A stretch of 64,000 nt of DNA. Origin: Solirubrum puertoriconensis. Its GTDB lineage: Bacteria > Bacteroidota > Bacteroidia > Cytophagales > Hymenobacteraceae. The position numbers were made by a program, and so were the translations under genes. Of this stretch, positions 1 to 64,000 are shown piece by piece. Below the pieces are notes generated by a model. It did not search any database and was not told where the DNA came from. It saw only the letters and a program-made list of their open reading frames with translations. The stretch is from assembly GCF_001483135.1 (NCBI RefSeq), contig NZ_LNAL01000007.1, positions 62,001 through 126,000 of the forward strand. Direction: 5' to 3'. Numbering within the stretch: position 1 is the first letter of the stretch; each line of letters begins with the position of its first letter.

Positions 1-1737
1 CAGGTCGGCGGCCATTTGCAGCGGCGAGTACATGGTAACGTACAGGGCCAGCTGCTTGGCAAGGGTAGTGTGCACTTGCCGGCCTTTGTTGCGCTCGGGG
101 TTCCAGCTTTCCAACTTTATCTGGAAGACGCCCGGCGTGTAATCCATGGGGCCGCCCATCAGGCGCGTGAAGGGCAGAATGGTTTCGTGCTCGGGCGGGT
201 TGCCTTCGCTCCAGGCGTTGAACTCGTTGCCGCGTGCGGCCTCGCTGGCCAGCCAGTTGGGGTAGGTGCGGTGCTGGCCCGTCGGCCGCACCGATTCGTG
301 CATATCCACCATAATCTGGCGCTTGGCCATGTGCTCGGCGGTGCGGTTGTAGTGGTTCACCATCCACTGGCCATCGTGGTGCTCCCCGCGCGGAATAATG
401 CGGCCCACGTAACCGGTTTTCACGGCGTCGTAGCCGTGGTCTTTCATAAAGCGCAGGGCTTCGTCTTGGCGGCGCTCGTAATTGGTAACCGAGCCCGAGG
501 TTTCGTGGTGCATAATCAGCTTCACGCCCTTGCCCGTGGCGTAGCGCTGCAGCTCCTGCACGTCGAAATCGGGATAGGGCGTCACAAAGTCGAACACCTC
601 CTCCTTCCAGTTGCCGTGCCAGTCTTCCCAGCCCACGTTCCAGCCTTCTACCAGCACGCCCTCAATGCCGTGCTTGGCTGCAAAATCGATGTAGCGCTTC
701 ACGTTGGCGGTGTTGGCACCGTGGCGTCCGTTGGGCTTAAGCGCGTTCCAATCGGTGGAGGCCAGCTTTAGGTTGCCCGTGTCGGAATAGTTCCAGGAGG
801 CTTTGTTGACGTGCATTTCCCACCACACACCCACAAACTTCTGCGGCTTTATCCAGCTTACATCCTGCAGCTTGGTGGGCTCGTTCAGGTTCAGAATAAG
901 CTTCGAGGCCAGTACCTCGGTGGCTTTGTCGCTTACCACCACCGTGCGCCAGGGCGTGTGCTCGGGCGCTTGCAGGTAAGCCGCGGCCCCGGTAGCCGAG
1001 GGCACCAGCTGCGCACCTAGGGCGTAGTTCTTGGTGTCCACGTTCAGCATCATGGCAGGGTAGTTCACCAAGGCTGCTTCGTGGATGTTCACGTACAACC
1101 CGTCGTCCGATTTCAGCATTAAGGGCGTTTGCACCGTGGTTGGCGCTGCCTTCAGCTGAATGGGCGTAATGGGCAAGGTGTTTACCTCGCTCAGGCGGGT
1201 GGTTTGGTAAGCGTACTCGTTCGAGTCGTAGTCGCCGGGTATCCAGAAGGCTTTATGGTTGGCGGGCAAGTTGAACTCGGTACGCTCTTGCTGCACCACA
1301 AAGTACTGTAGGTTGGGCTGCTGCGGCCACTCGTAGCGAAAACCTAGGCCGTCGTCGAACAACCGGAAACGCACCTGCATCTGCCGCTTTTCAGTGCCCG
1401 GTTGCTGCAGCGTTACCAGCAACTCTTTGTAGCGGTTGCGGATTTGCTTCACCTCGCCCCACACCGGCGCCCAGGTTTCATCAACCTGCGCCGAATCAAC
1501 TTTGATTACAGTTAGCCCTTTGTCGAACCCTGGCTGGCCTTGCAGCAACACACCTAGGCGGCTGGGTTTCAGCACCTGCTTCTGCCCGAAGCTGAGCTGG
1601 TACAGCGGCTCGCCCTCGGGGCTTAGCCGAAAGTTGAGCGCGAGCTTATTGGTAGGGGAGTGGAGGGTTTGAGCCAGCGCGGGCCCGGAGGCAAGCAGCG
1701 CGGCGGCAAAGGCAAAGGCAAAGGCAGCACGGGTCAT
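1..1737 (-). CDS. GH97 alpha-glucosidase, SusB type (3' end cut by window edge)
   Basis: The first 579 residues are present; the C-terminus lies beyond base 1. A signal peptide (about residues 1-23, ending ALAQ) predicts export to the periplasm. Then come the GH97 N-terminal beta-sandwich and the catalytic barrel with GVLVEGWNVGWEDW. In the well-studied inverting family member, Bacteroides SusB, I recall E439, E508 and E532 as catalytic or calcium-binding glutamates. Here E412 (HHETSG), E481 (MHES) and E505 (RGNEFNAW) show exactly the same spacing (69 and 24 residues). This suggests an inverting, calcium-dependent exo-alpha-glucosidase rather than the retaining GH97 subtype, which uses an Asp nucleophile. 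The role would be trimming starch-like oligosaccharides. No susC/susD is visible on this side. Family is sure; substrate is inferred. Confidence 0.93.
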   Translation of the reverse strand, partial: MTRAAFAFAFAAALLASGPALAQTLHSPTNKLALNFRLSPEGEPLYQLSFGQKQVLKPSRLGVLLQGQPGFDKGLTVIKVDSAQVDETWAPVWGEVKQIRNRYKELLVTLQQPGTEKRQMQVRFRLFDDGLGFRYEWPQQPNLQYFVVQQERTEFNLPANHKAFWIPGDYDSNEYAYQTTRLSEVNTLPITPIQLKAAPTTVQTPLMLKSDDGLYVNIHEAALVNYPAMMLNVDTKNYALGAQLVPSATGAAAYLQAPEHTPWRTVVVSDKATEVLASKLILNLNEPTKLQDVSWIKPQKFVGVWWEMHVNKASWNYSDTGNLKLASTDWNALKPNGRHGANTANVKRYIDFAAKHGIEGVLVEGWNVGWEDWHGNWKEEVFDFVTPYPDFDVQELQRYATGKGVKLIMHHETSGSVTNYERRQDEALRFMKDHGYDAVKTGYVGRIIPRGEHHDGQWMVNHYNRTAEHMAKRQIMVDMHESVRPTGQHRTYPNWLASEAARGNEFNAWSEGNPPEHETILPFTRLMGGPMDYTPGVFQIKLESWNPERNKGRQVHTTLAKQLALYVTMYSPLQMAADL

Positions 1738-1852
1738 AGGGCGCAAGGTAAGGCAGCTGCGGCAGTTTAAGTTGCGCAGTTTATTTGCAAGATGCCTGTT
1801 TTATCGACTGTGCCACCAACCTGTTTTTGCAACACCGACTACCCATCGGCAG

Positions 1853-2785
1853 TTACCCCAAGGCTACCGCCGATAACTTGGTGGCACTTGCTCGCTCTCT
1901 GATAATCTTCCCGATTTCATCCAGAGCCTGCCGGGCCTCACGCATTACGGGCAGCAAGGGCCAGATGTGCGGCATACCTGCGCCACGTACCACCCGTAGC
2001 GGTACCTCTGCGGTCATCAGTTTTTGAGCCAGCAACTCTTCGTCGGGGCGCGTGATGTCGCGCTCGGCAATGAATAAGTAAGTAGGCACGAAGCCCTCGA
2101 ACGAGCCGTAAAGCGGCGAAATATCAGAGCTGCGCAACGACAACGGGCCGGCACACATGCGCTTGGCCGACAACACGCCCGCCGTAGCAAGCATGATATC
2201 CTGCTGATCCAGCGACAGTATTGCCGGGTTGGTCATGCTTGCATCGGCCACCGGCGACACCAGAATGAGGCTATTGGGCAGTTCGGCCACAGCTCGCTGC
2301 AGCAGCCGTTGGACCAGCAGCGTTAGCAGCGTGCCGCCCACCGAATCACCGATGAGAATAATGTTGCGGGCGGCGTAGCGCGTGAGCAGGTGGGCGTAGG
2401 CGTCGTCAAGGCTGCGGTTGAGCGCGCCGATCTGGTTTTCCGGCGCTTTGGGATAGTCTACCAAGTAAGCCGTCAGCTGGGTTTGCTGCGCAAGCCGGGC
2501 AATGCTGTGCCAGTTAATTTCGGTGGGGCCGTAGACAAAGGCGCCGCCGGGGCAGTACAGTACAGCCACGTCCGGCTGGCTGACGGTGGCGGGCAATATT
2601 TCCGTCAGCGTGGCTAGCCCGGCCTTTACCGTCCGGAACTCTTGCCCCAGCGTATGGCGCGACGTGGGCACGTGCACATCATCGCGGCGCAGCTTAGCGT
2701 AGTCGATGGGGGAGCCGGCAAAGGTTTTCTTCAAGCCTTTGAGCTTGATGACGGAGGCAGTTAGGTAGTAGGTCAGGCTAGGCAT
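1853..2785 (-). CDS. Alpha/beta hydrolase, HSL/acetyl-esterase type
   Basis: About 310 residues. The oxyanion motif PGGAFVYGP (about 79-87) is the HGG motif of the hormone-sensitive-lipase family with H replaced by P. The nucleophile elbow is GDSVGG (Ser about 148), the acid lies in AERDITRPDE and the catalytic His in AGMPHIW. No signal peptide, so a cytoplasmic carboxylesterase on small acyl esters is likely. I chose the Met at 2785 because family similarity starts there (MPSLTYYL); an in-frame ATG at 2830 would add 15 residues. The P for H change in the oxyanion motif is unusual. The substrate cannot be told from sequence. Confidence 0.85.
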   Translation of the reverse strand: MPSLTYYLTASVIKLKGLKKTFAGSPIDYAKLRRDDVHVPTSRHTLGQEFRTVKAGLATLTEILPATVSQPDVAVLYCPGGAFVYGPTEINWHSIARLAQQTQLTAYLVDYPKAPENQIGALNRSLDDAYAHLLTRYAARNIILIGDSVGGTLLTLLVQRLLQRAVAELPNSLILVSPVADASMTNPAILSLDQQDIMLATAGVLSAKRMCAGPLSLRSSDISPLYGSFEGFVPTYLFIAERDITRPDEELLAQKLMTAEVPLRVVRGAGMPHIWPLLPVMREARQALDEIGKIIRERASATKLSAVALG

Positions 2786-2887
2786 GTTGCAGATAAGGGT
2801 TAGCTGTTGTGCACTGACCAGCAAAGCCATTGCCCCGCTGCACTACGCACGAGCAATTCACCCTTTTATGTGGTGCTGGGCTAAGCT

Positions 2888-3832
2888 CTAGATAGCCTTA
2901 AGATGTGTGCTCAGAAGTTTATCTCGAAGATCTGCAATGAGTTCACCATTAATGGTTTTCCAAGCTGTCCATCCATTTACTGTCTGTCTATTGCTTCCAG
3001 CGTTCTTTATCCCAGCTAAGGCAGCATAGCTTGGACTTGTAAATACTTGACCTAAGACTGCAAGTGAGCCGTCATCTTGTATCACAGCTTCATACTTATT
3101 CTGACTTCCGTTCTTAGGCTTGTACGTCATAAATAACTTATCAAATGGTTGTATGTAGCCAGCAGCTATTAGATCAAATATCTCAATATTGTTTTTAGAT
3201 AAACTACCCGATAATGTTTTATATTTTTCTTCTTCCTCTATATCTATTGTAGGTTTAAATTCCTCGGGAAATTCGTAAATAATATTGTTTGGATCTCCTA
3301 ATTCTACAAACTTGCTAAGTGTCCAAAGTTTTAATTTTAGTTTTTGCTGCCTGGCCCAATCACTTAGATCATTGGGGATAAAGTCTATTGGAATGCCTAT
3401 GACAGGATCTTGATTTAATATCTCGCTAACTATTTTTCTTACATCAACTGAGTTGATGTTTAGGTTGTCAAACTTTTCTTTGGTTTGAGAATTTACATCG
3501 CTATATAACTTTACTGCTGCATCTTCAAGGATGCGTTTAGTTGACGTTTGTTGAGAAGCCACTATCTGCTTAGATACTTGTTTGGCAATATGATTCCATA
3601 CATCATGATGACCTAGTTCAGCCTCAACGATGTACCATTTGCGCTGACCTATATCGATAGCAAATACATCTGGTATGGTTCCTAAACCATCAGCGGTTCT
3701 AATTTTAGTCTTAGGCAAGTAGAATGAATCAGGCCCAAACAAGTATTCGTAATTATTTATTACAACTTGCTCAAGTTCTGCTTCGTTCTTGAAGGGTGTT
3801 TTTAGGTATTTTCTTGTAGCAAAAATTAACAT
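2888..3832 (-). CDS. Putative PD-(D/E)XK nuclease with C-terminal RAMA-like domain
   Basis: 314 residues, strikingly AT-rich compared with both neighbours and with different codon use (many AAA, AAT, ATA, TTA codons), a sign of horizontal transfer. The N-terminal part fits a restriction-endonuclease-like core: E18 and E21 in the first helix, PDVFAID (Asp55) and WYIVEAEL (E70, E72), followed by a helix with HHDVWNHIAKQVSKQ. The last 65 residues (YEAVIQDDGSLAVLG, SPSYAALAG, VNGWTAWKT) resemble a RAMA domain, a small module found with restriction enzymes and adenine methylases. No methylase or other subunit is adjacent. It may restrict foreign or modified DNA, or be a stand-alone nuclease. Domain calls are by motif only; no function is proven. 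Confidence 0.65.
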   Translation of the reverse strand: MLIFATRKYLKTPFKNEAELEQVVINNYEYLFGPDSFYLPKTKIRTADGLGTIPDVFAIDIGQRKWYIVEAELGHHDVWNHIAKQVSKQIVASQQTSTKRILEDAAVKLYSDVNSQTKEKFDNLNINSVDVRKIVSEILNQDPVIGIPIDFIPNDLSDWARQQKLKLKLWTLSKFVELGDPNNIIYEFPEEFKPTIDIEEEEKYKTLSGSLSKNNIEIFDLIAAGYIQPFDKLFMTYKPKNGSQNKYEAVIQDDGSLAVLGQVFTSPSYAALAGIKNAGSNRQTVNGWTAWKTINGELIADLRDKLLSTHLKAI

Positions 3833-3874
3833 TGTTTTATTGTATTATCACATCAAATAAATTGAGTCAATTAA

Positions 3875-5233
3875 TTACCGCACCGGCTTCGGTATTACCG
3901 GCAAGCTTTCGTGGCCTTGCTCATCCACCGATGCCACGCCGAAGATGAAGTTATCCTTGCTATGGGGCAAGTCGGCGGTGGTGCCTTGCACGGGGAAGCG
4001 CTGCTGCCATACCGGCGACGAAGTTTCGCGCATCAGCACCACGTAACCAGCGGGCTTGCGGCCGGTAGTGGGAGCGTCCCACTTCAGCTCGGTACGGTTG
4101 GTGAGGTTGGCCGTGAGCACGCCTACGTTTTGCGGCGCGGCGGGCGCCAGAGCCAGGCTAGCCATGGTGGCCAGGTTTACGCCGGTGTTCTTGCGCAGGT
4201 ACTCGTAATCCACAAACTCGGGCAAATCACCGTACTGGCGGCCGTTTTCGGTGCGCAGGTCCTGGTGTTGGTGCGTAAAGTCCTCGTTCATCTCGGAGAA
4301 GCGCACCGCGGCGTAGCCTTGCTGGTTGAAGGGCGTGTGGTCGCCGCCGCGCAGGAAGCGGTCGGGGCGGTACTCCAGTGCTACGGTGTGGCCGGCTACG
4401 TACTGCTCGCCGGCTTGCTTGGCATAGCGGGCCAACTGGCGCGAGGGCGAGTCGTTTTCGGAGGAAAGCTGGCGGCGCAATTGGGCCTGCTCGGGGGTTT
4501 CGTTGGCGGGCACGCCTTCGCTAAACACGCGTACTAGGTTGGGTTGGTGCAAGTCGGGGTCGTGGCCGTGCGAGTTGCCCACAATGTCGTTGTTGAGCAT
4601 GCCCACTATGTTCCAGTTGTTGGCCTTGGCCTTGCGGGCCAGGTAGCCCGAGCCGATCAGGCTTTGCTCTTCGCCCTGCACGGCCACAAAAATGAGCGTG
4701 CACGGGAATTTGCGGGTGCTCATCACGCGGGCCATTTCCATTACTACGGCTACGCCCGAGGCATCGTCGTTGGCGCCGGGGGCGTCGGCCGTGCGGTTCA
4801 TTACGTCGGTCACGCGCGAATCGAGGTGGCCGCTCACGATGAACACGCGGTTGTCGTTGGGATCGGTACCGGGCAGGGTAGCCATTACGTTGGCCATCAC
4901 GGTTTTCACGTCCACACGCCGGCCGTCGGGCTTCACCGTAAAGGTGTCTTGCTCCACCTTCAGGCGGCCGCCGCTGGCCTTGCTGTACTTCCAAAACTCG
5001 TCTTCGACCCAACGCCGTGCCGCGCCAATGCCACGCTTCTTGCTCTTGGTATCGGAGAGGGTGTGGCGCGTGCCAAACGACACCATTTTATACACGTCGT
5101 CCTTGAGGCGGTCGGCCGAAATTTCGGCTACCATTTTCTGGATTTCGGCGTCGGTGGGCGGAGTGGTGGGGGCTTGGGCGAAAAGGGCTAGCGGGAAGAG
5201 GAAAGCAGCAGACGCGAGCAGCGAAAATTTCAT
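3875..5233 (-). CDS. M28 family zinc metallopeptidase, secreted
   Basis: 452 residues with a signal peptide (1-20, ending LFAQ). Zinc ligands of the M28 fold are recognisable: H136 and D138 in SGHLDSR, the bridging Asp in GANDDASG (155-160), the catalytic Glu pair in QGEEQ (about 188-189), Asp216 in LNNDIVGN and a His in GGDHTPFNQQG (about 310). The last 90 residues look like a fibronectin-III type sandwich (TELKWDAP, GYVVLMRE). This is the usual architecture of Bacteroidota secreted aminopeptidases that release N-terminal residues from peptides in the periplasm. It is transcribed divergently from the AraC-family gene; the 165 bp between the two starts must hold both promoters. It may be controlled by that regulator, but no operator is visible. 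Confidence 0.9.
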   Translation of the reverse strand: MKFSLLASAAFLFPLALFAQAPTTPPTDAEIQKMVAEISADRLKDDVYKMVSFGTRHTLSDTKSKKRGIGAARRWVEDEFWKYSKASGGRLKVEQDTFTVKPDGRRVDVKTVMANVMATLPGTDPNDNRVFIVSGHLDSRVTDVMNRTADAPGANDDASGVAVVMEMARVMSTRKFPCTLIFVAVQGEEQSLIGSGYLARKAKANNWNIVGMLNNDIVGNSHGHDPDLHQPNLVRVFSEGVPANETPEQAQLRRQLSSENDSPSRQLARYAKQAGEQYVAGHTVALEYRPDRFLRGGDHTPFNQQGYAAVRFSEMNEDFTHQHQDLRTENGRQYGDLPEFVDYEYLRKNTGVNLATMASLALAPAAPQNVGVLTANLTNRTELKWDAPTTGRKPAGYVVLMRETSSPVWQQRFPVQGTTADLPHSKDNFIFGVASVDEQGHESLPVIPKPVR

Positions 5234-5398
5234 GGCGGGGCGTAGGGGAAATTGGGAGCCTAACTTACGTTGCTACCCGCAATTTCGGCTGCTATGCACC
5301 CATTAAAGTGCACGCAGCGCAACCACATAGAGGCCGCAAACGCGGAAACTATGCAGCTCAGCAGGCCAAACGGCAACCAACACGGGTTATCTTGCTGC

Positions 5399-6271
5399 AT
5401 GGTTATTCAGTTACCGCACTACTTCCGGGAACAGGCCGATACCTACCGCACCATCGAGCTGAACGCGAGCACGCTGGCCTCGTACCGGCGCAACGAAGAC
5501 TCGCGCAACAACCAGGTGCACCTCAGCGAAAACCTGCTGTTGCTGGTAGTAGGCGGTCAGAAAATTGTGCGCACGCCAGGCCAACCCGATCTGGTGGTAA
5601 AGGCCGGCGAAGGCGCTTTTATCCGGAAGGGCTTGTACCTGATGTCGTCGTTGTGCGCCGATGAGCAGCCTTACGAGAGCGTGCTGTTTTTCTTGCACGA
5701 AGAGCCGGTGCGACAGTTTATCGGTCAGTACGCCGGCCACTTCGCCGCCGATGCCGCACCCGATGATCATAACCCGCCCGCAGCGCTACCCTTTGCCATT
5801 GGCCCAGTGCTGGAGGGCTACGTGCGCTCGGTGCAGCCCTACTTCGAGCAGCCGGCCGCAGCGCCGCAGCCGTTGCTGCAGCTAAAGTTTCAGGAGTTGC
5901 TGCTGCACTTTGTGCTGGCACCCGATGGCGCGCGGTTTCGGGAGTTTCTGCTGCGCATCAACCACGCAGCCAGCTACGATTTGCGCCTGCTGATGGAGCA
6001 GAACTTTCAGCGGCCGTTCAGCTTGGCGGAATTTGCGTTTTTGTCGGGCCGCAGCCTGTCGTCGTTTAAGCGCGACTTCAGCAGCACCTTTGGGCAACCG
6101 CCGGCGCAGTGGCTAAAGGCACGCCGGCTCGAGCAGGCCAGGTTTTTGTTGCGCACCACCTCGCTCAGCGTGGGGCAGGTGGGCGACGAAGTGGGCTTTG
6201 CCAGCACCTCGCACTTTGTGCAGGCCTACAAAGAGCGGTTTCAGCACACGCCGGGGCAGGCGGTGGCCTGA
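5399..6271 (+). CDS. AraC-family transcriptional regulator
   Basis: About 290 residues. The N-terminal 170 residues form a cupin-like sensory domain (LLLVVGGQKIVRTPG, AGEGAFIRKG). The C-terminal 100 residues hold the two AraC helix-turn-helix units: FSLAEFAFLSGRSLSSFKRDF, followed by the second unit ending VGFASTSHFVQAYKERF. The start at 5399 (MVIQLPHY) is chosen because the sequence upstream in the same frame is not conserved-looking and would overlap the promoter of the divergent peptidase. Cytoplasmic DNA-binding protein; effector unknown. A role in controlling the divergent M28 peptidase gene is inference from position only. Confidence 0.88.
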   Translation: MVIQLPHYFREQADTYRTIELNASTLASYRRNEDSRNNQVHLSENLLLLVVGGQKIVRTPGQPDLVVKAGEGAFIRKGLYLMSSLCADEQPYESVLFFLHEEPVRQFIGQYAGHFAADAAPDDHNPPAALPFAIGPVLEGYVRSVQPYFEQPAAAPQPLLQLKFQELLLHFVLAPDGARFREFLLRINHAASYDLRLLMEQNFQRPFSLAEFAFLSGRSLSSFKRDFSSTFGQPPAQWLKARRLEQARFLLRTTSLSVGQVGDEVGFASTSHFVQAYKERFQHTPGQAVA

Positions 6272-6327
6272 GCCGCTGGGGACATTCTTTGGCCCGCAGC
6301 CGCTACCCGCTGGCCTGGCACTCAAAC

Positions 6328-6335
6328 TAGCTTTG
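6328..6335 (+). promoter_or_regulatory. Bacteroidota -7 promoter element (TAGCTTTG)
   Basis: TAGCTTTG matches TAnnTTTG, the sigma-A -7 element of Bacteroidota, and lies 22 bp before the ATG of the PhnD-like gene. A clear -33 TTG cannot be assigned. The short leader fits a directly transcribed single gene. Confidence 0.5.
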
Positions 6336-6357
6336 TCGGAGAGAAAACGACTTAGCT

Positions 6358-7317
6358 ATGAAGACCTTGCTCGCCCTGTTTGCCGTGGTGTTGCTGCTGG
6401 CAGCACCTGCCTTTGCCCAACCTTACAAAGCACCCGCGGCCGCGCCCTTGGTGGTGGCTACCTACGCCTATGGCGGCAACGACCGAGTAGCCAACATCAG
6501 TCCCTTAGCCGAGGAGCTAGCCCAAAAACTGGGGCGAAAAGCCCAGGTAAAAAGCTATCCAACCGTACCTGCGCTATTGCAAGCCGTGCGGGCCGGGCAA
6601 GTTGATGTGGCCCTGCTGAATACCCTAGGTTATTTGCTGCTCGATGCCGAAGCGAAGGCAGCCGTGGTACCTTTGGCTATGCTGCAACAACCCACGGGTG
6701 GCAGCGGCAATTACCAAGCGTGCCTGGTAGCCCATCAGCGCAGCGGTGTAAGCTCGTTGGCCGATCTGACGAGCAACGCAGGCAAGCTGCGCTTGGCATT
6801 CGCTGGCGAGCATTCTACCTCGGGTCACGTGGTGCAGCGCCTGCAGCTAAGTGCCTTAGGTATCGGGGAGCCCGAGAGCAGTTTCGCGGCCATTAGCTAC
6901 AGCGGCAACCATGCGGCCGTGCTGCAAGATGTGCTACAAGGCCGCGCCGACCTAGGCGCCTGCGGCCTAGGTGAGTATCTGCGTCTGCAGCAACAAGGAG
7001 CCGCCCAGGAGCTGCGCTTGCTGTGGGCTTCCGAGGACATTCCGCTGGGCCCCGTGGTGGCGCGGCCGTCGTTGGGTAGCATACAGCTCCGCCGGTTGCA
7101 AGAGGCGCTGCTTGCCCTGCACGAAACCAACCTAAATGCGCTGGCACAAGTGCGGGCTGCTTGGGCTGAGGCCAAACATGCGGAGCGCTTTGTGCCGGTA
7201 CAGGCAGGGGCATACCGGAGCCTTTACCAAATTGCTGATAGCCAGGATCAGCGCATGCACAACCTGCCGGGCCAAGCCGATGAGCTGCGGCGCATATTGG
7301 CGCACTACGGGCAGTAG
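6358..7317 (+). CDS. PhnD/SsuA-like substrate-binding protein
   Basis: 319 residues. A signal peptide (1-20, ending AFAQ) is followed by a periplasmic binding-protein fold: VVATYAYGG, LAEELAQKLGRKAQVKSYPT, VDVALLNTLGYLL, AGEHSTSGHVVQRLQL and GRADLGACGLGEYLRL. This pattern is that of phosphate/phosphonate (PhnD) or aliphatic-sulfonate type binding proteins, where a Ser-Thr-Ser-Gly turn contacts the oxyanion. No ABC ATPase or permease is adjacent (a biotin operon is convergent downstream), so it is an orphan binding protein. It could feed a transporter encoded elsewhere or act as a ligand sensor. The ligand is not predictable from the sequence. Confidence 0.8.
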   Translation: MKTLLALFAVVLLLAAPAFAQPYKAPAAAPLVVATYAYGGNDRVANISPLAEELAQKLGRKAQVKSYPTVPALLQAVRAGQVDVALLNTLGYLLLDAEAKAAVVPLAMLQQPTGGSGNYQACLVAHQRSGVSSLADLTSNAGKLRLAFAGEHSTSGHVVQRLQLSALGIGEPESSFAAISYSGNHAAVLQDVLQGRADLGACGLGEYLRLQQQGAAQELRLLWASEDIPLGPVVARPSLGSIQLRRLQEALLALHETNLNALAQVRAAWAEAKHAERFVPVQAGAYRSLYQIADSQDQRMHNLPGQADELRRILAHYGQ

Positions 7318-7327
7318 CTCTTAGGTG

Positions 7328-9890: not shown

Positions 9891-9938
9891 GGAAGCAGTA
9901 GGTAATGGAACCGCAAAGATGGCGCACAAACCGCCGAT

Positions 9939-53690: not shown

Positions 53691-53698
53691 GTAGCTGC

Positions 53699-54322: not shown

Positions 54323-54403
54323 GGGCATGGCAAGAATGGAGGAGCACCTAGGAACGCGCGCGGCCGGGCATGGGGTGGCCTAGAGCAGGTACGTGGCGCA
54401 AAC

Positions 54404-54919: not shown

Positions 54920-55071
54920 AGTGCCTTAACTAAGAGTACGTAGTTATAGTTGTGGTTTGATAAGTACAATGTTGTTATTCAAATACTTGCTATGTAATTG
55001 TTGAAGTAAAAGTGAAAACGAATGTGGAATGAATGAAGATGACGAGCTATTCACTAGTGCACAGATAAAAA

Positions 55072-55104
55072 CCCGCACCAGTAAGTAGTACCTACTGGTG
55101 CGGG
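55072..55104 (-). terminator. Terminator of the NTF2-like gene
   Basis: 12-bp stem CCCGCACCAGTA with complement and TTTTTATCTG on the minus strand, about 25 bp beyond the stop. Confidence 0.8.
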
Positions 55105-55128
55105 CGAGCTAAAAAGCGGCAATACCAC

Positions 55129-55992: not shown

Positions 55993-56203
55993 GGCTTGGC
56001 GGTTGTTTCCGGACTGCAAGCTGGTGGCTGACAGAGGCTTCTGCAATCACACAATCATGCGGCGCGGGCTGCTCAAGCGGCTAGCAAATAGTTTAGCACG
56101 GTGGTTGGAAAATTAGCGCATAAGTTGTTGTAAGTCAATGTGTAAATATTGTGTATTTAACGTACTGGATGGAGCTTATGACGTCTGCCTGGTGTTGTAG
56201 CTA

Positions 56204-57319
56204 ATGATGATCGAACAGCTCACGTTACCCGTTCTAAACGCTCCAGCCACCGCCCAACCCGAGCCCTTGGTGCGCACGCACAGCGCCAAGCTTTGGCTGC
56301 CCAAGCGCGTGCTCTTCACGCCCGATGCCCTCGACGAGGAGTTCGGGCAGCAGATCTATCAGCGCGTGCTGCAGCACGACCTCGAGGTGGAGGTGCTCAA
56401 GAGCAACCGCCTGACGGGCCTGCGAGGTACCGACGACCGCGACACTTACCGCCGTGCCAAGAGCACCCTGGCCGTGGTGAAGGCCCCGCCGAGTGCGCTG
56501 CGCCTGCAACCCACGCCGCCCTCGGCCGATTGGCAGATGAACCTGGCCGAAGGCTGCCCCGCGCACTGCCAATACTGCTACCTGGCGGGCTCGTTGCAGG
56601 GCCCCCCGGTGGTGCGCGTGTTTGCCAACCTGCCCAACTTGCTGCAGAACACCGCCAGCTACGAGCAAGCCGGCCGGCTTACCAGCTTCGAGGTCAGCTG
56701 CTACACCGATGTGCTCGGTATTGAGCACCTTACCGGCAGCCTAGCCGAGTGCGTGCGCTACTACGGGCAGCGCGAGGGTGCCCGCCTGCGTTTTGTGTCG
56801 AAGTACGACCAAGTGGGTTCGTTGCTCGACTTGCCCCACAACGGCCGCACGCGGGCCCGGGTAAGCCTCAACGCCGAGTCGGTAGCCCGCAAGCTCGAGG
56901 GCGGCACGGCTTCCATCGAGGCTCGTTTGCAGGCTTTGCGACAACTGGCCTTGCCTAAGGAGCTAGGCGGTGGCGGCTACCCCGTAGGCGTGGTGCTGGC
57001 GCCCATTATGCCCATTCCTAACTGGGAGCAGGAGTACCGCCAGCTGTTCGAACGCCTGGAGGCCACGCTTGATTTTGAGTGCGACCTGACGGCCGAGTTC
57101 ATCAGCCACCGCTTTACGCCTGGCTCTAAGGACGTGCTGCTGCAGTGGTACCCCAACACCTCCCTCGACTTCGACGAGGCCAAGCGCGCCGTTAAGCGCA
57201 ACAAGTTTGGCAGCCACAAGTACGTGTACCAACCCGACGACATGCGCCGTCTCAAGGAGTTCTTCTACAGCGAGTGGCAGCAGCGCTTCCCGCAGGCCCC
57301 CGTTAAGTACTGGACCTAG
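56204..57319 (+). CDS. Spore photoproduct lyase family radical SAM protein
   Basis: 371 residues. Radical SAM cluster C118-x3-C122-x2-C125 (CPAHCQYC) followed by YLAGSLQGPPVVRVFANL. A further Cys166 (FEVSCYTDVLGIEHLTGSL) stands 41 residues after C125; in Bacillus SplB, from memory, the essential H-atom donor Cys lies 43 after. The GIEHLT context also matches SplB. Bacillus SplB reverses the thymine dimer formed by UV in spores. This genus makes no spores, so it may repair a related lesion or do another radical job. Start could also be the next ATG (56207). Cytoplasmic. TAG stop within CCTAGG. Confidence 0.88.
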   Translation: MMIEQLTLPVLNAPATAQPEPLVRTHSAKLWLPKRVLFTPDALDEEFGQQIYQRVLQHDLEVEVLKSNRLTGLRGTDDRDTYRRAKSTLAVVKAPPSALRLQPTPPSADWQMNLAEGCPAHCQYCYLAGSLQGPPVVRVFANLPNLLQNTASYEQAGRLTSFEVSCYTDVLGIEHLTGSLAECVRYYGQREGARLRFVSKYDQVGSLLDLPHNGRTRARVSLNAESVARKLEGGTASIEARLQALRQLALPKELGGGGYPVGVVLAPIMPIPNWEQEYRQLFERLEATLDFECDLTAEFISHRFTPGSKDVLLQWYPNTSLDFDEAKRAVKRNKFGSHKYVYQPDDMRRLKEFFYSEWQQRFPQAPVKYWT

Positions 57320-57459
57320 GCCCCCGGTGCCGCCAGTAGCAAATGCGCCCAACTGCAGCCGCCACAATGGCGGTAGCAGTTGGGCGTACGAGCAAAGAGG
57401 GAGGGAGAAACTGTAAAAGGTTTGCGTTAGGCAAAGCGGCGGCTGTAGGAGAAAAAGAG

Positions 57460-57741
57460 CTAGGCGCGGTTCATGTAATCCAAATAGAACTTCACGAACT
57501 CGTCGTACTTGTGCAGCTTGGGGTTGGAGGCTTCCGGTGGCGGGGTCGGCTCGTTCGACGAGGCTACCATGAAGCTGGTAGTAGCAGGCGAGCTTTTCGG
57601 GCTCGTGGTACTTACCTGCACCTTTAGGGAGCTAACTGTAGCAATGGGCTGATCGTCGGGGCGGATCGAGCGTTCGACGGCTTCGTTGGGCAGCGCAGAG
57701 ACTATCGTGAGCAGGGGCAGAGAGTTTGCAATAGGTCTCAT
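57460..57741 (-). CDS. Small secreted hypothetical protein
   Basis: 93 residues. Hydrophobic start (MRPIANSLPLLTIVSALPNE) may be a signal peptide; the middle is Ser/Thr/Pro-rich and likely disordered, and the end (KLHKYDEFVKFYLDYMNRA) is a helix. No family recognised. It stands convergent to the SPL-like gene and divergent from the ATPase gene. Low complexity makes it the least secure CDS here. Confidence 0.4.
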   Translation of the reverse strand: MRPIANSLPLLTIVSALPNEAVERSIRPDDQPIATVSSLKVQVSTTSPKSSPATTSFMVASSNEPTPPPEASNPKLHKYDEFVKFYLDYMNRA

Positions 57742-57882
57742 AGGCTCTTGCGGTTAGGTTGCTGTATAATAATAATCAGATGAGCTATTGAAAACCAAAG
57801 ACGAGTTGGAAAAAGTATACGAAACTCTTCTTCAGGACTACCAATAGCTCGTCGAGGCTAACCTCCTCTGTTTCTTAACGCT

Positions 57883-58326
57883 ATGCAAGCAGTCGTTTTC
57901 TGCGGAATTCAGGCCACGGGCAAGTCCACGTTCTACAAGCAGCGGTTCTTCAACTCGCACGTTCGCATCAGCCTCGACCTGCTCCGTACCCGCCACCGCG
58001 AGCGGCGCCTGCTGCAGTTTTGCCTCGAAACCCAAGCCCGGTTTGTGGTCGATAACACCAACCCCTCGGCAGCCGAGCGGCAGGTATACATTGCTGCCGC
58101 CAAGCAGGCCGGATACCAAGTGGTGGGGTACTATTTTCAGTCGGTGCCGCGCGAGGCCCTGCTGCGCAACCAACAACGGCCCGCCCCGGAGCAGGTGCCG
58201 GCCAAAGGCATTTACGGCGCTAGCGGCCGACTCGAGTTGCCTGACTACGCGGAGGGCTTCGATGAGCTCTACTACGTGCGCATTGTGCCTGGCGGCAGCT
58301 TTGAGGTGAGCCCCTGGCAGACGTAA
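57883..58326 (+). CDS. PNK-like P-loop ATPase
   Basis: 147 residues. Walker A FCGIQATGKSTFY (8-20) and a Walker-B/lid region with RFVVDNTNPSAAERQ, both as in the T4 polynucleotide kinase 5'-kinase domain and Zeta-toxin-like small kinases. It lacks the phosphatase half of PNK. Substrate could be an RNA or DNA 5' end, or a small molecule. Cytoplasmic. It is 52 bp ahead of the DUF3052-type gene. Confidence 0.82.
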   Translation: MQAVVFCGIQATGKSTFYKQRFFNSHVRISLDLLRTRHRERRLLQFCLETQARFVVDNTNPSAAERQVYIAAAKQAGYQVVGYYFQSVPREALLRNQQRPAPEQVPAKGIYGASGRLELPDYAEGFDELYYVRIVPGGSFEVSPWQT

Positions 58327-58378
58327 AGGTCTTGTGGTACCTAGGGCGGCGCGGCGTTCTTCTGCTACCTTTAGCCTC

Positions 58379-58813
58379 ATGAAGTCAGCCGTTGAGAAAA
58401 TGCTCCTGAAGCCCGGCGCGGTGGTGCTGGTGCTCGGGCTACCCGCCAATTTGCAGCCCCTGCTTGCCGACCTGCGCACCCACTGCACCGTGGTGGAGCA
58501 TGCTGCCGATAAAGTTGATGCGGCCTTGGTATTTGCCACCATGCAAACGGAAATCGATCAGTTGGCACCACAGGTAGCTGCTTTGGCTGCCGGCGACGCA
58601 GCCATATGGTTTGCCTACCCCAAAGGCACCAGCAAAAAGTACCGCTGCGACTTCAACCGCGACACCGGCTGGGCTCCGCTGCACGCCCTCGGCTTCGAGC
58701 CCGTGCGGCAAATTGCTATTGATGACGATTGGTCAGCGCTGCGGTTTCGCCGCGTTGAGTACATCAAGCAGATGACGCGCGCCACCCGCCGCGCCACCCA
58801 GCCTCAAGCCTAG
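58379..58813 (+). CDS. DUF3052-like protein
   Basis: 144 residues from the Met at 58379. Soluble alpha/beta: MKSAVEKMLLKPGAVVLVLG, DAALVFATMQTEIDQL, AIWFAYPKGTSKKYRCDFNRD and FEPVRQIAIDDDWSALRFRRVE. The order (WFAYPKGTSK, then a Asp-rich DDDWSALRFR near the end) is that of DUF3052, a family without known activity. The Arg/Lys-rich C-terminus (TRATRRATQ) suggests nucleic-acid binding. Stop TAG in CCTAGG; hutI starts 24 bp downstream. Confidence 0.75.
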   Translation: MKSAVEKMLLKPGAVVLVLGLPANLQPLLADLRTHCTVVEHAADKVDAALVFATMQTEIDQLAPQVAALAAGDAAIWFAYPKGTSKKYRCDFNRDTGWAPLHALGFEPVRQIAIDDDWSALRFRRVEYIKQMTRATRRATQPQA

Positions 58814-58837
58814 GTACTACACTCGCTCCGCTCCGCA

Positions 58838-60106
58838 GTGCCCACCACCCAACCCTACTCGCTGCTCATCCGCAACGCCGCGCAGGTGCTCACGCTGGCC
58901 GGCCCGCCCGCCGATAAGCCGCTGGCCGGCGCTGCCATGGCAGAGTGGCGCATCATCAACCTAGGGTACGTAGCCTGCCACAGCAGCACCATTGCCGCGG
59001 TGGGTGCCATGCACGAGCTCGACGAGGCGCTGATTGGCCCCGAGACCCGCATCATTGATGCCACGGGCCGCGTGGTGATGCCCGGTTTGGTAGAGTGCCA
59101 CACGCACCTGGTGTTTGGCGGCAACCGCGCCGATGAGTTTCAGCGCAAGCTGCAAGGCGAGTCGTACCTCGATATTCTGGCTTCGGGTGGAGGCATCCTG
59201 AGCACCGTGCGCAAAACCCGCACTGCTTCCGACGCTGAGCTGCTCGCCCAAGCCCTGCAGCACCTCGATGGTTTTCGGCGCTACGGCGTAACCACCCTCG
59301 AAGCCAAAACCGGCTACGGCCTCGATAAGGAAACTGAGCTGCGCCTGTTGCGCGTGGCCCGGCAAGCAAGCCGGCAGCAGCCCGTGCGCATCGTTAATAC
59401 CTTCCTGGGTGCCCACGTGCCCGGCCCCGAGTACAAAGGCCGCCCCGCCGATTACCTCGATTACCTGGTGGCCGAAGTACTGCCCGAGGTGCGTGGCGCG
59501 GCCGAGTTTGTGGATGTGTTTTGCGAAGAAGGCGCATTTGGCGTCGAGGATTCGCGCTGCTACCTGCAGCATGCCCGCGACCTAGGATTCAAGCTGAAAA
59601 TCCATGCCGAGCAACTACACGACCTAGGCGGCTGCCTGATGGCCGCCGAGCTGGGTGCCATCAGCGTCGACCACTGCGACTACCTCACGCCCGAAGGCGC
59701 TGCGCAGGTAGCAGCAGCGGGCCAGGGCCGCACCGTGGCGGTGCTGCTGCCGCTGGTGCCCATGTTTTTGCGGCAGGATAAATACGCGCCCGGCCGGCAA
59801 TTTATCGACGCGGGCTTGTCTGTGGCCATCAGCACCGATTTTAATCCCGGCTCGTGCCCCAGCAAAAACCTGTGGCTGGCCCTGCAGGTAGCTTGCCTGA
59901 AAATGGGCCTGACGCCGCGCGAGGCTTTGACTGCCGTAACCATCAACGCCGCCTGGGCCATCGACCGGCAGCAGGACTGCGGCACTTTGGAGCCCGGCAA
60001 GCGCGCCGATGTGCTGCTGCTGCGCGTGCCCGACTACCGCGAGCTGCCGTACTGGTTGGGCGAAAACCCGGTGGCGCAGGTGGTGATTGGCGGCAAGGTA
60101 GCCTAG
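58838..60106 (+). CDS. hutI: Imidazolonepropionase
   Basis: 422 residues with a GTG start at 58838, the only start in frame that leaves the N-terminal strand intact. Amidohydrolase fold that opens the imidazolone ring, step 3 of histidine breakdown, giving N-formimidoyl-glutamate. Metal ligands: HTH in VECHTHLVFGGNR, His in KIHAEQLHDLGG, and Asp in STDFNPGSCPS; the GFRRYGVTTLEAKTGYG segment binds substrate. Likely transcribed with the DUF3052-type gene. TAG stop in CCTAGG. Cytoplasmic. Confidence 0.95.
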   Translation: MPTTQPYSLLIRNAAQVLTLAGPPADKPLAGAAMAEWRIINLGYVACHSSTIAAVGAMHELDEALIGPETRIIDATGRVVMPGLVECHTHLVFGGNRADEFQRKLQGESYLDILASGGGILSTVRKTRTASDAELLAQALQHLDGFRRYGVTTLEAKTGYGLDKETELRLLRVARQASRQQPVRIVNTFLGAHVPGPEYKGRPADYLDYLVAEVLPEVRGAAEFVDVFCEEGAFGVEDSRCYLQHARDLGFKLKIHAEQLHDLGGCLMAAELGAISVDHCDYLTPEGAAQVAAAGQGRTVAVLLPLVPMFLRQDKYAPGRQFIDAGLSVAISTDFNPGSCPSKNLWLALQVACLKMGLTPREALTAVTINAAWAIDRQQDCGTLEPGKRADVLLLRVPDYRELPYWLGENPVAQVVIGGKVA

Positions 60107-60112
60107 GTTACA

Positions 60113-60163
60113 GGGCGCGGCTCTGCAGCGCGGAACGAATTTCCGCGCTGCAGAGCCGCGCCC
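60113..60163. repeat. 23-bp perfect hairpin, REP-like
   Basis: Arms 60113-60135 and 60141-60163 (GGGCGCGGCTCTGCAGCGCG... and its complement) with a 5-nt loop, no mismatch, directly after hutI. Longer and more GC-rich than a usual terminator and without a T-tract. It shares the style but not the sequence of the repeats near bioA. Confidence 0.75.
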
Positions 60164-60178
60164 AGGGTCAACCAAAAA

Positions 60179-60209
60179 GGGCCGGCCCCTAGGTGCTAGG
60201 AGCCGGCCC
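60179..60209 (-). terminator. Terminator after the ECF operon
   Basis: 14-bp stem with one mismatch (GGGCCGGCCCCTAG and its partner) and T-rich CCTTTTTGG on the minus strand, 37 bp beyond the stop of the lipoprotein gene. Confidence 0.75.
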
Positions 60210-60245
60210 GTATCGAACACCGGAATAGGTAATAGATTAAGCTGG

Positions 60246-61214
60246 CTATAGGGTGCGGATGTCGGCCACCATAGCCGTAACATCGGTTTCCGTGGGCGTT
60301 AGGGTTACGGCCGTAGCGGAGCCCACCACCAGGCTTTGCTTGGCGTAGTACACCCGCTCGTTATCAACGTGGATTACCAACACTTTCACCTTGGCTCCGG
60401 TGGGCAGTTGGTTGGCGGTGAATTTGTTGTTGCTGTCGGCGCAAAGCTGCAGCACCGCGTTCAGCTCATCGAACACCACAAACACGGCGGTTTTGGTCTT
60501 GTCAACGGTTGGGGCATTAATCGTGATGGGCAGGGGTGGCGAGGTGGGCAGGCCCACAAACCGGTCGCAGTTAATCCAGCCCAAGCCCGCGTTCATCAGG
60601 CTGCCTTGCACCGAACCCGAAAAACCGCCGCCAGTGGGGGCAAAGGCCGCCGTGGGCAGCGGTATCCAGCTAAAGCAACCGGCTGCGCCGCCACCTACAC
60701 CATTACCCACGAACAGCTGCATGCCTTGCTGCGAGGTGAGCACCGGCGGTAGCACCGTCTGGAAACGCACCTGCGTGGTGTCGTTGATGCGCAGCGGCAC
60801 GCTATCCTGGGTGGCCTGAATCTGAAACTCGCCGGCTGATTCGAGCAACTCGCCCTGCTGCGCCACCGTGGGCATGGCCGAAAGCACCATATCGGCCTTG
60901 CCCATCACCTCGCGGATACGCACCCGCACGGGGCTGTTCGACAGCGGCTGGTTGTCGGTTCGGATGAAATTGTTTGCCGCGAAGCTGAAGCGGTTGCCTT
61001 TGGCGGTTACCACGGTTTGCGCGGTGCGCGCCGACAGCGAAAAAAGCTGCGGCGCAGCGCCGTACCGGGTAGTAAAATCCGCAATGCTGGTGAACTTGGT
61101 AGGGTTCGTGACTGGTGGAGTTACACCGCCGTCAACTTCACAAATAACAATGTCTTCTTTGGCGCAGCCGAACATGCTAGCAGCCAGCGCGGAGAGGAGA
61201 AGGATACGCTTCAT
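60246..61214 (-). CDS. Lipoprotein, last gene of the ECF sigma operon
   Basis: 322 residues from the Met at 61214 (MKRILLLSALAASMFGC, lipobox with Cys about 17). Mature part is beta-rich in two similar halves, without recognised family: FSLSARTAQTVVTAKGNRFSF, VRVRIREVMGKADMVLSA, then FSWIPLPTAAFAP and KVKVLVIHVDNERVYYAKQ. It starts 13 bp after the stop of the fusion gene, so the three genes sigma factor, fusion, lipoprotein form one operon. Probably outer membrane or periplasm; role in envelope sensing is by context. Confidence 0.75.
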   Translation of the reverse strand: MKRILLLSALAASMFGCAKEDIVICEVDGGVTPPVTNPTKFTSIADFTTRYGAAPQLFSLSARTAQTVVTAKGNRFSFAANNFIRTDNQPLSNSPVRVRIREVMGKADMVLSAMPTVAQQGELLESAGEFQIQATQDSVPLRINDTTQVRFQTVLPPVLTSQQGMQLFVGNGVGGGAAGCFSWIPLPTAAFAPTGGGFSGSVQGSLMNAGLGWINCDRFVGLPTSPPLPITINAPTVDKTKTAVFVVFDELNAVLQLCADSNNKFTANQLPTGAKVKVLVIHVDNERVYYAKQSLVVGSATAVTLTPTETDVTAMVADIRTL

Positions 61215-61227
61215 AAACCAGTCAGAA

Positions 61228-62889
61228 TTAGTGTTTAGCAATGGCCGGGACGGGACGCTTCGGCTCTTTTAAGTTGAAAGACACACCGGTTTGCAGGCCC
61301 ACCGACATGGGGCGGCGCTGCAGCAGCCCCGAGTTGGGGGCGGTGAGCGAAGTGAGTTGGTATTGCAGCGTGGGGCGCAGGAGCAGGCGCACGTCGGGCG
61401 TAAGGTTGTAGTCGACGAAAGCGCCGGCGGTGGCGGCTACCGTCCAGGTGCGGTAGCGGGCGTCGGTGGTGGGGTCGTTGTTCTGCGTGCAGTTGCAGGC
61501 GCTGCCTTCGGTGGTGCGGCCGCCGGTGTACACCCCCAGCGTACCTCCGGCCAGCCAACCTAGGGCGTAGCGGTGGTTGCCAGCGAGTTTGTATTGCAGC
61601 TGCACCGGCACCACCATAAAGCGGTACACATCGCGCTGATCTACTTTCAAAATGTTGCCGTTGCTCTTTTGAACCTGGTAACGGTAGCGGGTAGCGTAGT
61701 CGGAGTAGCCCAAGCCCACCGAAACCTTCGCCTGGCGGTTGAGGGCGTAAGCCACGTTCAGCTGACCCGAGTAGCCCACTGCCGGGCGCTCCAAGCTGGT
61801 AAGCTGCCGTTGGGCTTTGCTACCGTCGCCCAAGAGGTGACGATAGGAGTAGGCGGCGCCGGCCACCATTTCCACGCTCAACCCTTTGATGATGCGGGCT
61901 CGGCGGCTTTGCGGCTTGCGGCTGCTGCGGCGGGTACGGCGTACTTCCGGCTCGTCGGGCTCGGTTAGGGCCACCCCAGGGGCAGTAGGCTCAAGCGGCT
62001 GACTAACTCCCTTGATGCGGCCGCTAGTACCCGTGCCAGCAGAGGCTAGGTTGGTAGTAGTGCCAGCTTCCGAAAGGCTAGCCAAGGCTTGGCCGGTTTT
62101 CGGGCGAGCGGCGCGGCGCAGGCTCTTGCGCGTCAAGCCCAATTTGCGAGAGGCTGAGGCATTGGAGGCCGCGGCAAAGGTGTTGCTGCCGGCTCGGCTG
62201 GTAGCAGTCCGGCTACCCAAGCTAGCTACGCTTTGCTCTTTGCCTAGGCGCCCGGTGCGGGTACGGGCAGCCGTGCTGGCAGTGGCCGCAGCCGCCGAGC
62301 CCAAGATCTTAGCTCGCGCCGAGCGCGCAGTGCGGCGGCTGCCTTTGCCGGCCGTAGCTGCAGCGTATTCGGAGGGAGCCGCTGCGGGCGCCAGGCCGTT
62401 GCTGACTTCCGGGGCACCTAGGGCGTTGCGCTTGCGTGCCGACGCCGAGGTATTGCTTGCATAAGTACCAGTGGCTGGGTTGGCAACTGCTCCTTCCGGA
62501 GTGGCTTGTGCAGCATTGGTTTCCGCATCAACAACCCCGGCGTTGTTGCTACCCGCGGAGCCAGGGTTGCCGGGCTGCTCGTTCGGTACTATGCCAGCTT
62601 GGCCAGCTTGCCCGCTGCCATTGGCAGCGCGAGCGGCAACCGGCTGCGCAGAGCCAGCAGCACTTTTGCCGAAGGGCAGGTTGAAGCGGTGAAAGCCACC
62701 TAGGAGCGCCACGCCAAGCAGCAGAATGGCAGCCGCGGTGCTGAGGTAAAAAAACAGGCGGCGGTCTTTCTTCTGCTGGGGCAGGCGGCTCTGGATACCT
62801 GCCCAAGCATCACTGGGTGGTTCGGCACCAAAGTCGTGGAGCTTATCGTGCAGCTCCCGAAAAAAATCTTGCTGATCGTGCTCAGTCAT
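61228..62889 (-). CDS. Anti-sigma-like N-terminus fused to an outer-membrane barrel-like domain
   Basis: 553 residues. Residues 1-43 are cytoplasmic, acidic and soluble (MTEHDQQDFFRELHDKLHDF), followed by one membrane helix (about 45-65, FFYLSTAAAILLLGVALLGG). Then a 230-residue Ala/Ser/Thr/Arg/Gly linker and a C-terminal 210-residue part with alternating aromatic strands (VEMVAGAAYSYRHLLGDG, VSVGLGYSDYATRYRYQV, FMVVPVQLQYKLAG, TWTVAATAGAFVDY, GVSFNLKEP) like the PorT/OMP_b-brl_2 barrel. It is 5 bp after the sigma gene, the place of an anti-sigma factor. Such a chain would span from cytoplasm to outer membrane. Confidence 0.72.
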   Translation of the reverse strand: MTEHDQQDFFRELHDKLHDFGAEPPSDAWAGIQSRLPQQKKDRRLFFYLSTAAAILLLGVALLGGFHRFNLPFGKSAAGSAQPVAARAANGSGQAGQAGIVPNEQPGNPGSAGSNNAGVVDAETNAAQATPEGAVANPATGTYASNTSASARKRNALGAPEVSNGLAPAAAPSEYAAATAGKGSRRTARSARAKILGSAAAATASTAARTRTGRLGKEQSVASLGSRTATSRAGSNTFAAASNASASRKLGLTRKSLRRAARPKTGQALASLSEAGTTTNLASAGTGTSGRIKGVSQPLEPTAPGVALTEPDEPEVRRTRRSSRKPQSRRARIIKGLSVEMVAGAAYSYRHLLGDGSKAQRQLTSLERPAVGYSGQLNVAYALNRQAKVSVGLGYSDYATRYRYQVQKSNGNILKVDQRDVYRFMVVPVQLQYKLAGNHRYALGWLAGGTLGVYTGGRTTEGSACNCTQNNDPTTDARYRTWTVAATAGAFVDYNLTPDVRLLLRPTLQYQLTSLTAPNSGLLQRRPMSVGLQTGVSFNLKEPKRPVPAIAKH

Positions 62890-63434: not shown

Positions 63435-63678
63435 ACAGTACTTATAGAGCAGGGTAGCAAAGCTGATATTCCGGAATATGACAACCTTCTGCACGCTTGA
63501 CCGGGCACCTGTTTGCGCGGTTGCACGGCTCCTGAAATAATTATTCAAACCTTCGAATGAAGCTATAAAGCACCGATTTATCAGTATGAATTGTCGGGCT
63601 TTGGGCACGCAGCAAGCGCGCCGCGAGAAATGTGGTAGCCAAGCCACGCCTCGGCTTGTCGCCGTACCTTCGCCCTGT

Positions 63679-64000
63679 ATGAATCCGCGTCTGCTGCTGG
63701 TAATCGGCATTGTTTGCATCTCGCTTTCGCCGATCTTCGTGAAGGGCATGCCGGTGCCGGGGCTTACCTCAGCCTTCTACCGCATCGTGGTGGCGTGGGC
63801 AGTGCTGGCGCTGTATGTGCTCCTCGCCCGCAAGCTCAAGCCCATCAGCCGCAAGGACTTGCTTATTTCCCTGCTCGGCGGCTTAGTATTCGCCTCCGAT
63901 ATTGCTGTTTGGAACATCTCCATCAGGCTGTCGTCGGCTACGGTAGCAACGCTGCTGGCCAACCTCGCGCCCGTGTGGGTGGGCTTGGGCAGTGTGTTGT
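63679..64000 (+). CDS. EamA-type transporter, 5' part only
   Basis: 107 residues up to the window edge. Hydrophobic helices from the first residue (MNPRLLLVIGIVCISLSPIFVKG), then TSAFYRIVVAWAVLALYVLLA and DLLISLLGGLVFASDIAVWNIS, with SATVATLLANLAPVWVGLG, the pattern of the drug/metabolite transporter superfamily (10 helices in full). Inner membrane; substrate unknown. Divergent from the ECF operon, with 244 bp between the starts. Confidence 0.85.
   Translation, partial: MNPRLLLVIGIVCISLSPIFVKGMPVPGLTSAFYRIVVAWAVLALYVLLARKLKPISRKDLLISLLGGLVFASDIAVWNISIRLSSATVATLLANLAPVWVGLGSVL

Follow-up and report, generated by a model that had tools for sequence, protein, structure and literature searches.

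The DNA considered here is a window of 64,000 nucleotides from Solirubrum puertoriconensis, a member of the Hymenobacteraceae (C7:62001-126000 of the genome called G000 below, which has 4,804,721 bases in 8 contigs). It holds a series of genes, including mqo and an FMO-like gene, and the hexamer CCTAGG is iterated throughout it. A sequence-only reading of the window had put the number of copies at about 93 and had described them as lying in genes and in gaps alike; direct counting gives exactly 93, of which 61 are inside called genes and 32 outside or across them, the gene calls being our own open reading frame and codon-likelihood calls, with no annotation used. The positions, orientations and codon phases of the sites are listed in Table 1.

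Table 1. CCTAGG sites and site-free stretches of the window. Site code: start position; + or - for the orientation of ACCTAGG, P for ACCTAGGT, n for neither; last sign 2 for C CTA GG, 0 for CCT AGG, i for outside or across called genes.
Feature	Position	Strand	Details
All 93 CCTAGG sites	1016..62704		listed below by position, orientation and codon phase
Sites 1-12			1016+2 1343+2 1553+2 6624-2 6951+2 6966-2 7512+2 7932+2 8451+2 8508+2 9064+2 9505-2
Sites 13-24			10343-2 10628+2 11025-2 12024Pi 12208+2 12763-2 13426ni 16193-i 17112+i 17747+2 18163-i 18227-i
Sites 25-36			19302n2 19353+2 19811+i 19909-i 20024-2 21202+2 22216-2 22756-0 22878+2 23935n2 24088-i 24159+i
Sites 37-48			24674+2 26380-2 28460+0 29167-2 30751ni 30940ni 31132ni 31566-2 31863+2 32133+2 33270ni 33287+i
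Sites 49-60			35010-2 35703+2 36163+2 36267+0 36760n2 36823+2 39368+0 39464-i 40319-i 40343+i 40900+2 42746+i
Sites 61-72			43262+2 43700+i 44610-i 45475+2 45823-2 45988+2 46822+i 46855+0 47405-i 49303-i 49442-2 49868+2
Sites 73-84			49995+i 50453+0 50629+2 53073P0 53686-i 54347+0 54403+i 55128+i 55790+2 57315+i 58340+0 58809-i
Sites 85-93			58960+2 59581+2 59623+2 60102-i 60188-i 61559+2 62243n2 62417+2 62699+2
Exemplar, GCACCTAGGGC	1013..1023	+	full extended consensus, within a called gene as xxC CTA GGx
Exemplar, CCCTAGGT	6623..6630	-	ACCTAGGG on the - strand
Full 8-bp palindrome ACCTAGGT	12023..12030		one of only two in the window (second: 53072-53079)
Longest site-free stretch	1559..6623		neither counted permissive context present
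Site-free stretch	36829..39367		one permissive context; contains the FMO-like gene
mqo	47487..49052	-	site-free; single permissive context unfilled

One hundred dinucleotide shuffles of the window contain 15.5 copies of CCTAGG on average and 25 at most, and the expectation under Markov models of order 1, 2 and 3 is 15.6, 13.9 and 20.3, respectively; the order-4 value is high (69.5) because the excess of CCTAG and CTAGG is itself built into a model of this order. CCTAGG ranks first among the palindromic hexamers of the window under a codon-phase Markov model, with 81 copies counted and 10.3 expected, the count of 81 omitting sites that straddle called gene edges. The excess also persists across the rest of the genome, where 6212 copies are found compared with 136 of the reversed control word GGATCC. 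Neither outcome under which the sequence-only reading would have given up its claim, a count within the range of Markov models or no excess elsewhere in the genome, was therefore found, and the excess of CCTAGG is well supported as a genuine phenomenon, from which a mechanism can only be inferred. Copies had been said to extend often to a longer form, and the window contains 11 instances of GCACCTAGGGC or its complement.

The label of palindrome given to CCTAGG is right for the hexamer core, while the actual unit is an oriented word. In the three genomes of the genus that are rich in the motif (G000, G004 and G007), A (T on the far side) stands on exactly one flank in 701 of 793 sites, on both flanks in 20 and on neither in 72; the word is therefore ACCTAGG followed by G, C or A, although its six-letter core is still palindromic. 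The one-sided A is present in coding DNA (476/547) and in noncoding DNA (225/246, compared with 122.8 expected if the flanks were independent), and in the window 53 sites are oriented +, 29 are oriented -, 2 carry A and T on both flanks and 9 on neither. ACCTAGGG occurs at 53 times its expectation, and with A, C or T as the last letter the ratio is 19, 10.5 and 5.1, respectively, while any single change at places 2–7 lowers it to 2.9 or less and mostly to about 1; on the flanks of the motif, C is favoured before it, G or C is favoured after it and T after it is avoided. The words of relatives, described below, are clearly non-palindromic. In samples from G030 and G036 (L217, L218), ACCTAGCT and ACCTAGGT are both enriched, a palindrome-like A[CG]CTAG[CG]T in place of the oriented form.

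The excess acts at the level of DNA. In genes the motif reads CCT AGG or xxC CTA GGx, since the third frame contains a stop, and the excess extends to either strand, to each codon phase that is permitted and to noncoding DNA, which is denser in the motif than coding DNA, with 86 of 322 G000 sites outside or across genes, in about 15% of the stretch, and within genes ACCTAGGV occurs 195 times on the sense and 278 times on the antisense strand. In 224 kb fetched from G000, 277 Leu codons lie between C and GG, and CTA accounts for 75.5% of them, compared with 8–12% in the other three Leu contexts (Fisher odds ratio for motif-context CTA, 31.7). The CTA share at xxC CTN GGx is 60.9% (of 207) in G004 and 50.0% (of 284) in G007, and in the low relatives G001 and G005 it is 3.1% (of 131) and 0% (of 51), the share in other Leu contexts being 3–12% across the compared genomes. 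Permitted Leu–Gly sites are filled to 50–76% with an odds ratio of about 24–32, which by our arithmetic amounts to a per-site bias of about 3.2–3.5 natural-log units. The excess at the wobble base holds against the G, C and T alternatives alike, and therefore it does not reflect C-to-T decay or cytosine deamination. Deamination or CCYRGG methylation was also rejected on the counts of CCCAGG and CCCGGG, which are not specially depleted in high compared with low genomes (the observed/expected ratio of CCCAGG is 0.85–1.28, with no strong depletion), and on the C and T alternatives at the wobble base, which are depleted too.

CCTAGG is one of several such words in the family. Among the 8 genomes of the genus, three hold 6212, 5678 and 5325 copies and the other five 123–249. 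Whole-genome counts in 204 genomes of the family show 39 that are high in one of three patterns and none in two: CCTAGG reaches at least 1209 copies in 13 genomes; CCTACCCC (both strands) reaches at least 1019 in 14 and at most 536 elsewhere; and AGGTATAG reaches at least 2823 in 12 and at most 833 elsewhere. A word search was made in 60 sets of about 19–180 kb, with two fetched contigs of <1.6 kb left out, G004 and G007 searched separately, and two of the four regions of G104, one of the three of G123 (the motif-poor ones) and five of the nine stretches of G000 unused. It returned ACCTAGG in G000, G004, G007, G030, G036, G088, G104 and G123; CCCTAGG in G072; TAGGCCA in G041, G043, G129 and G137, which explains the moderate CCTAGG counts of these four of the 13 CCTAGG-high genomes; CCTACCCC in H. 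latericoloratus, H. glacieicola and others; and AGGTATAG in Pontibacter roseus, P. aquaedesilientis and others. Pontibacter ummariensis (L073) has no AGGTATAG excess in this search and is left out of the AGGTATAG sets used for single-change ratios, strand counts and dialect enrichment; many of the 60 sets have no comparable iterated word, and presence of the motif is patchy inside genera. For each of the four dialects tested, noncoding DNA and the codon phases with non-zero expectation show enrichment, the CCTACCC sets leaving out motif-poor small-contig regions of G075 and G096 (3 and 7 sites).

Other words were also observed. Single samples of about 20 kb (L240, L234, L214, L213, L215 and L226) give hints of CAAGTATA, GGGGCCCC, AATATT and TCCGGA; CTCGAG is enriched in the sequence fetched from G000, G004 and G007 (424 compared with 179 expected, strand counts) and depleted in that from the low genomes G001 and G005 (14 compared with 91 expected); and in genus g4 many genomes have almost no GGATCC (0–10 copies) while others have normal numbers, a pattern that looks like restriction-site avoidance.

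Comparison of related species shows that the motif is maintained in excess at synonymous positions. G000, G004 and G007 diverge pairwise by about 12% over a three-way alignment of 132 kb. In six comparisons, the wobble A of the motif Leu codon is retained in 92/96, 86/98, 88/110, 89/132, 74/83 and 71/101 cases, and the A of CTA elsewhere in 51/107, 73/173, 64/236, 59/270, 32/92 and 42/168, in the same order. Of the CCTAGG positions occupied in any of the three genomes, 85 are shared by all three, 70 are shared by two and 83 are confined to one. An excess gain of the motif is suggested rather than shown because the comparisons are unpolarised: CTG stands opposite CTA in 39/72 motif contexts and 169/2267 other contexts from G007 to G000, in 20/37 and 129/1862 from G004 to G000, and in 10/27 and 69/1762 from G000 to G004. 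The sites missing only in G007 mostly read CCTGGG or CCCAGG there (21/34); both Vsr and a 5-methylcytosine (m5C) methyltransferase are present in G007, as in two other CCTAGG-high genomes, and the word may be undergoing erosion there through very short patch repair.

The motif depends little on neighbouring sites. Permissive contexts, counted as C-CTN-GG and Pro-Arg pairs only, are occupied in 62/122 cases within 100 bp of another site and in 411/640 beyond (Fisher p = 0.006), and from 100 to 1000 bp occupancy is flat in G000 and G004; spacing thus causes clear saturation at distances of up to 100 bp only, and G007 shows a trend. The same contexts explain the empty stretches of the window. The near-absence of sites that had been noticed at 1.6–6.6 kb, at 37–39 kb and in mqo is real, and these hold 0, 1 and 1 permissive contexts; therefore it is not necessary to regard them as recent imports. 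Across the window as a whole, the motif occupies 52 of the 68 C-CTN-GG contexts. A further site-free stretch at 13.4–16.2 kb has 6 permissive contexts, 0 of them filled. Under random placement of sites, one gap of 5.07 kb among 92 gaps has a chance of 0.047.

The motif is scarce on several small contigs, one of which carries conjugation genes. Three large contigs of G000 hold 27–28 CCTAGG per 20 kb; G000:C5 holds a single site in one stretch of 20 kb and none in another of 10 kb, G000:C4 has 2 in 12.5 kb, G004:C2 has 0 in 10 kb, and G007:C3, with TraM and TraG genes, has 0 in 10 kb. G007:C3 (L279, L316) also encodes the MAD2 methylase of a methylation-associated defence system.

The best reading of these observations is that the motif is a watermark resembling a highly iterated palindrome (HIP) or an uptake sequence and driven site by site. 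CCTAGG is the core of an oriented, highly iterated word, one dialect among several that mark the chromosomes of some Hymenobacteraceae lineages, and behind it would stand a lineage-specific, exchangeable sequence-reading protein, a reading to which we give a probability of roughly 0.5. At each site this putative protein would tip the balance towards the allele with the motif. The likeliest route would be a bias in repair or gene conversion during competition between alleles or strands, and the second likeliest would be weak selection on sites to which a chromosomal protein binds; excess retention, near independence of sites, the dialects and the lack of strong polarity fit such a factor. More tentatively, and at somewhat below even odds, an undescribed, exchangeable sequence-reading system that works without type IV pili and without a DNA methyltransferase of the classical kind may write a lineage-specific oriented watermark of 7–8 letters across entire Hymenobacteraceae chromosomes, a switch of specificity would rewrite the genome, and the word could mark self DNA.

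Several points weigh against this reading. Selection and biased conversion predict the same equilibrium, so the data do not separate them; no reader protein is known for the word; and its palindromic, restriction-site-like hexamer core fits a methylase. From G000 to G007 there is little gain (2/30 in motif contexts, 36/2055 elsewhere), and occupancy in G007 climbs from 0.32 to 0.63 up to 1 kb (0.47 to 0.63 from 100 to 1000 bp), which may reflect some neighbour effect in that genome. Scarcity on small contigs is uneven: G000:C5 has 10 sites at 200–210 kb, G000:C2 (89 kb) is motif-dense, and four G104 contigs of 79–102 kb have 3, 32, 3 and 16 sites per 20 kb. Seven genomes (G118, G061, G136, G134, G044, G087 and G067) with 574–888 CCTAGG are unaccounted for. 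No gene was found that tracks the trait, four methyltransferase families being covered and PF07669 and PF20473 not being searched genome-wide, and methyltransferases beyond these four Pfam families are possible.

Among the alternatives, organism-level selection for the binding sites of a nucleoid-organising protein survives best, although it too is unlikely. It is consistent with the near site-by-site independence, the slight exclusion within 100 bp and the soft flank preferences, but it requires thousands of sites of near-equal tiny benefit together with lineage-specific changes of the word, and there is no candidate protein.

A cognate orphan DNA methyltransferase that builds up its own site via methylation-directed mismatch repair, the model discussed for HIPs (Elhai 2015, PMC4390886), is slightly less probable. 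The G000 density of 1293 CCTAGG per Mb (6212 in 4.80 Mb) lies inside the 500–2500 copies per Mb given for HIPs in that paper, the core is the AvrII-type hexamer, and the palindromic words GGGGCCCC, TCCGGA and AATATT appear in some sampled genomes. However, none of the four families searched, covering m5C, N4/N6, N6-gamma and Dam-like enzymes, tracks the trait among the 13 CCTAGG-high genomes, and no common match separates high from low genomes: PF00145 (m5C) is found in 4/13, PF01555 in 5/13, PF02384 in 11/13 but also in 5/5 low genus members, and PF02086 in 0/13 (6/39 motif-bearing and 7/31 other genomes), while CCTAGG-high G129 matches none of the four. Five inspected PF02384 proteins differ in kind (HsdM-like, two Eco57I-like, MmeI-like and MAD2). 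The only match in G000 is a PF01555 protein on the 12.5-kb contig G000:C4 (L032:1372-3150), which adjoins a SmaI-family nuclease, and its site should therefore be CCCGGG; CCCGGG is depleted in the window (7 sites), equally in low relatives. The non-palindromic dialects and the little saturation at the proposed range of about 1 kb, despite the trend in G007, also speak against this model, and the suggestion of the sequence-only reading that the word is a methylase target finds no support in the four families, others not having been searched.

Less probable still is a DNA uptake sequence, by which uptake and recombination would favour fragments that bear the motif, the dialects paralleling those of Neisseriaceae. 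An oriented word occurs about once per kb on both strands, as in DNA uptake sequences (DUS) and uptake signal sequences (USS), the dialects differ between relatives, and the word is absent from 10 kb of the conjugative contig G007:C3. Against this, PF00437, the type IV pilus and type II secretion ATPase, is above cut-off in 1 of 32 genomes (G016), has zero matches in the 13 CCTAGG-high genomes and gives none or weak matches below cut-off in the other motif-bearing genomes tested, and type IV pilus uptake was rejected on this basis; uptake by fragments should saturate over kilobases, whereas occupancy falls clearly only within 100 bp, and presence is patchy inside genera. The methylase and uptake models each miss a tested part but retain some probability.

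A Chi or FtsK-orienting (KOPS) signal is very improbable, and the earlier idea of a segregation or recombination signal of this kind is not supported; a repair or recombination factor is still a candidate. The length of 7–8 letters and the high density suit it, the window is uneven (53 compared with 29), and CCTACCC lies mostly on the sense strand (74 compared with 23), though the codon-phase model also expects a skew, 28 compared with 3. Over longer stretches of 224, 160 and 200 kb, however, no strong polarity was found, the + and - orientations being near even (151/124, 97/105 and 102/122), and whole-genome counts of AGGTATAG in the two orientations almost balance, as in G156 (2373 and 2375, both replichores summed). 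Ordinary codon usage, cytosine deamination or very short patch repair is hardly credible as the source, for although one-off counterparts in comparisons between high genomes are mostly CCTGGG or CCCAGG, the word is enriched in noncoding and antisense DNA, is in excess over all three alternative bases and is not reproduced by the codon-phase model, and Vsr (PF03852), rejected as the cause, is found in just 3/13 CCTAGG-high genomes and is absent from G000.

The family offers 39 of 204 high genomes in three mutually exclusive patterns, and high and low relatives within one genus can be aligned; therefore the cause can be tested by gene content, methylomes and substitution patterns. Should imported DNA prove poor in the word more generally, the word would be a further means of distinguishing resident DNA from recent arrivals. 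To our knowledge, HIP1 of cyanobacteria has no established cause as yet, and few alternates to it have been described. Literature searches at the level of titles and abstract starts turned up no publication on CCTAGG in Hymenobacter and none joining HIP1-type palindromes with Bacteroid, Hymenobacter or Deinococcus.

Compared with known systems, the word resembles several and matches none entirely. The sites of restriction–modification systems are usually depleted in genomes. CCTAGG is the site of an AvrII-type system (PMC1939737), the same hexamer, but here there is no matching methyltransferase among the four families searched. In Dcm/Vsr very short patch repair, too, an enzyme of repair can shift the abundance of a short word; Vsr is confined to T:G mismatches, its action would convert CTAGG into CCAGG, against the direction seen here, and it occurs in 3 of the 13 CCTAGG-high genomes. 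With the DUS dialects of Neisseriaceae (Frye 2013, PMC3630211), the Hymenobacteraceae words share orientation, thousands of copies and lineage-specific dialects, but they are shorter (7–8 compared with at least 10 letters), come without a type IV pilus ATPase and are patchy within genera. With HIP1 (GCGATCGC) and the alternate HIPs of cyanobacteria (PMC4390886), the main text of which contains neither CCTAGG nor Bacteroid, they share about one copy per kb, strain-specific alternates and an excess at the DNA level, and the comparison with HIP1 drawn by the sequence-only reading holds for density, genome-wide spread and maintenance beyond mutation. Unlike HIP1, the Hymenobacteraceae word is oriented, with CCTACCCC, AGGTATAG and TAGGCCA non-palindromic, is patchy inside genera and has no cognate methyltransferase family among the four searched. 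Membership thus fails on palindrome form for HIPs and on pilus machinery for DUS, and iterated chromosomal words need be neither palindromic nor paired with a recognised cognate methylase.

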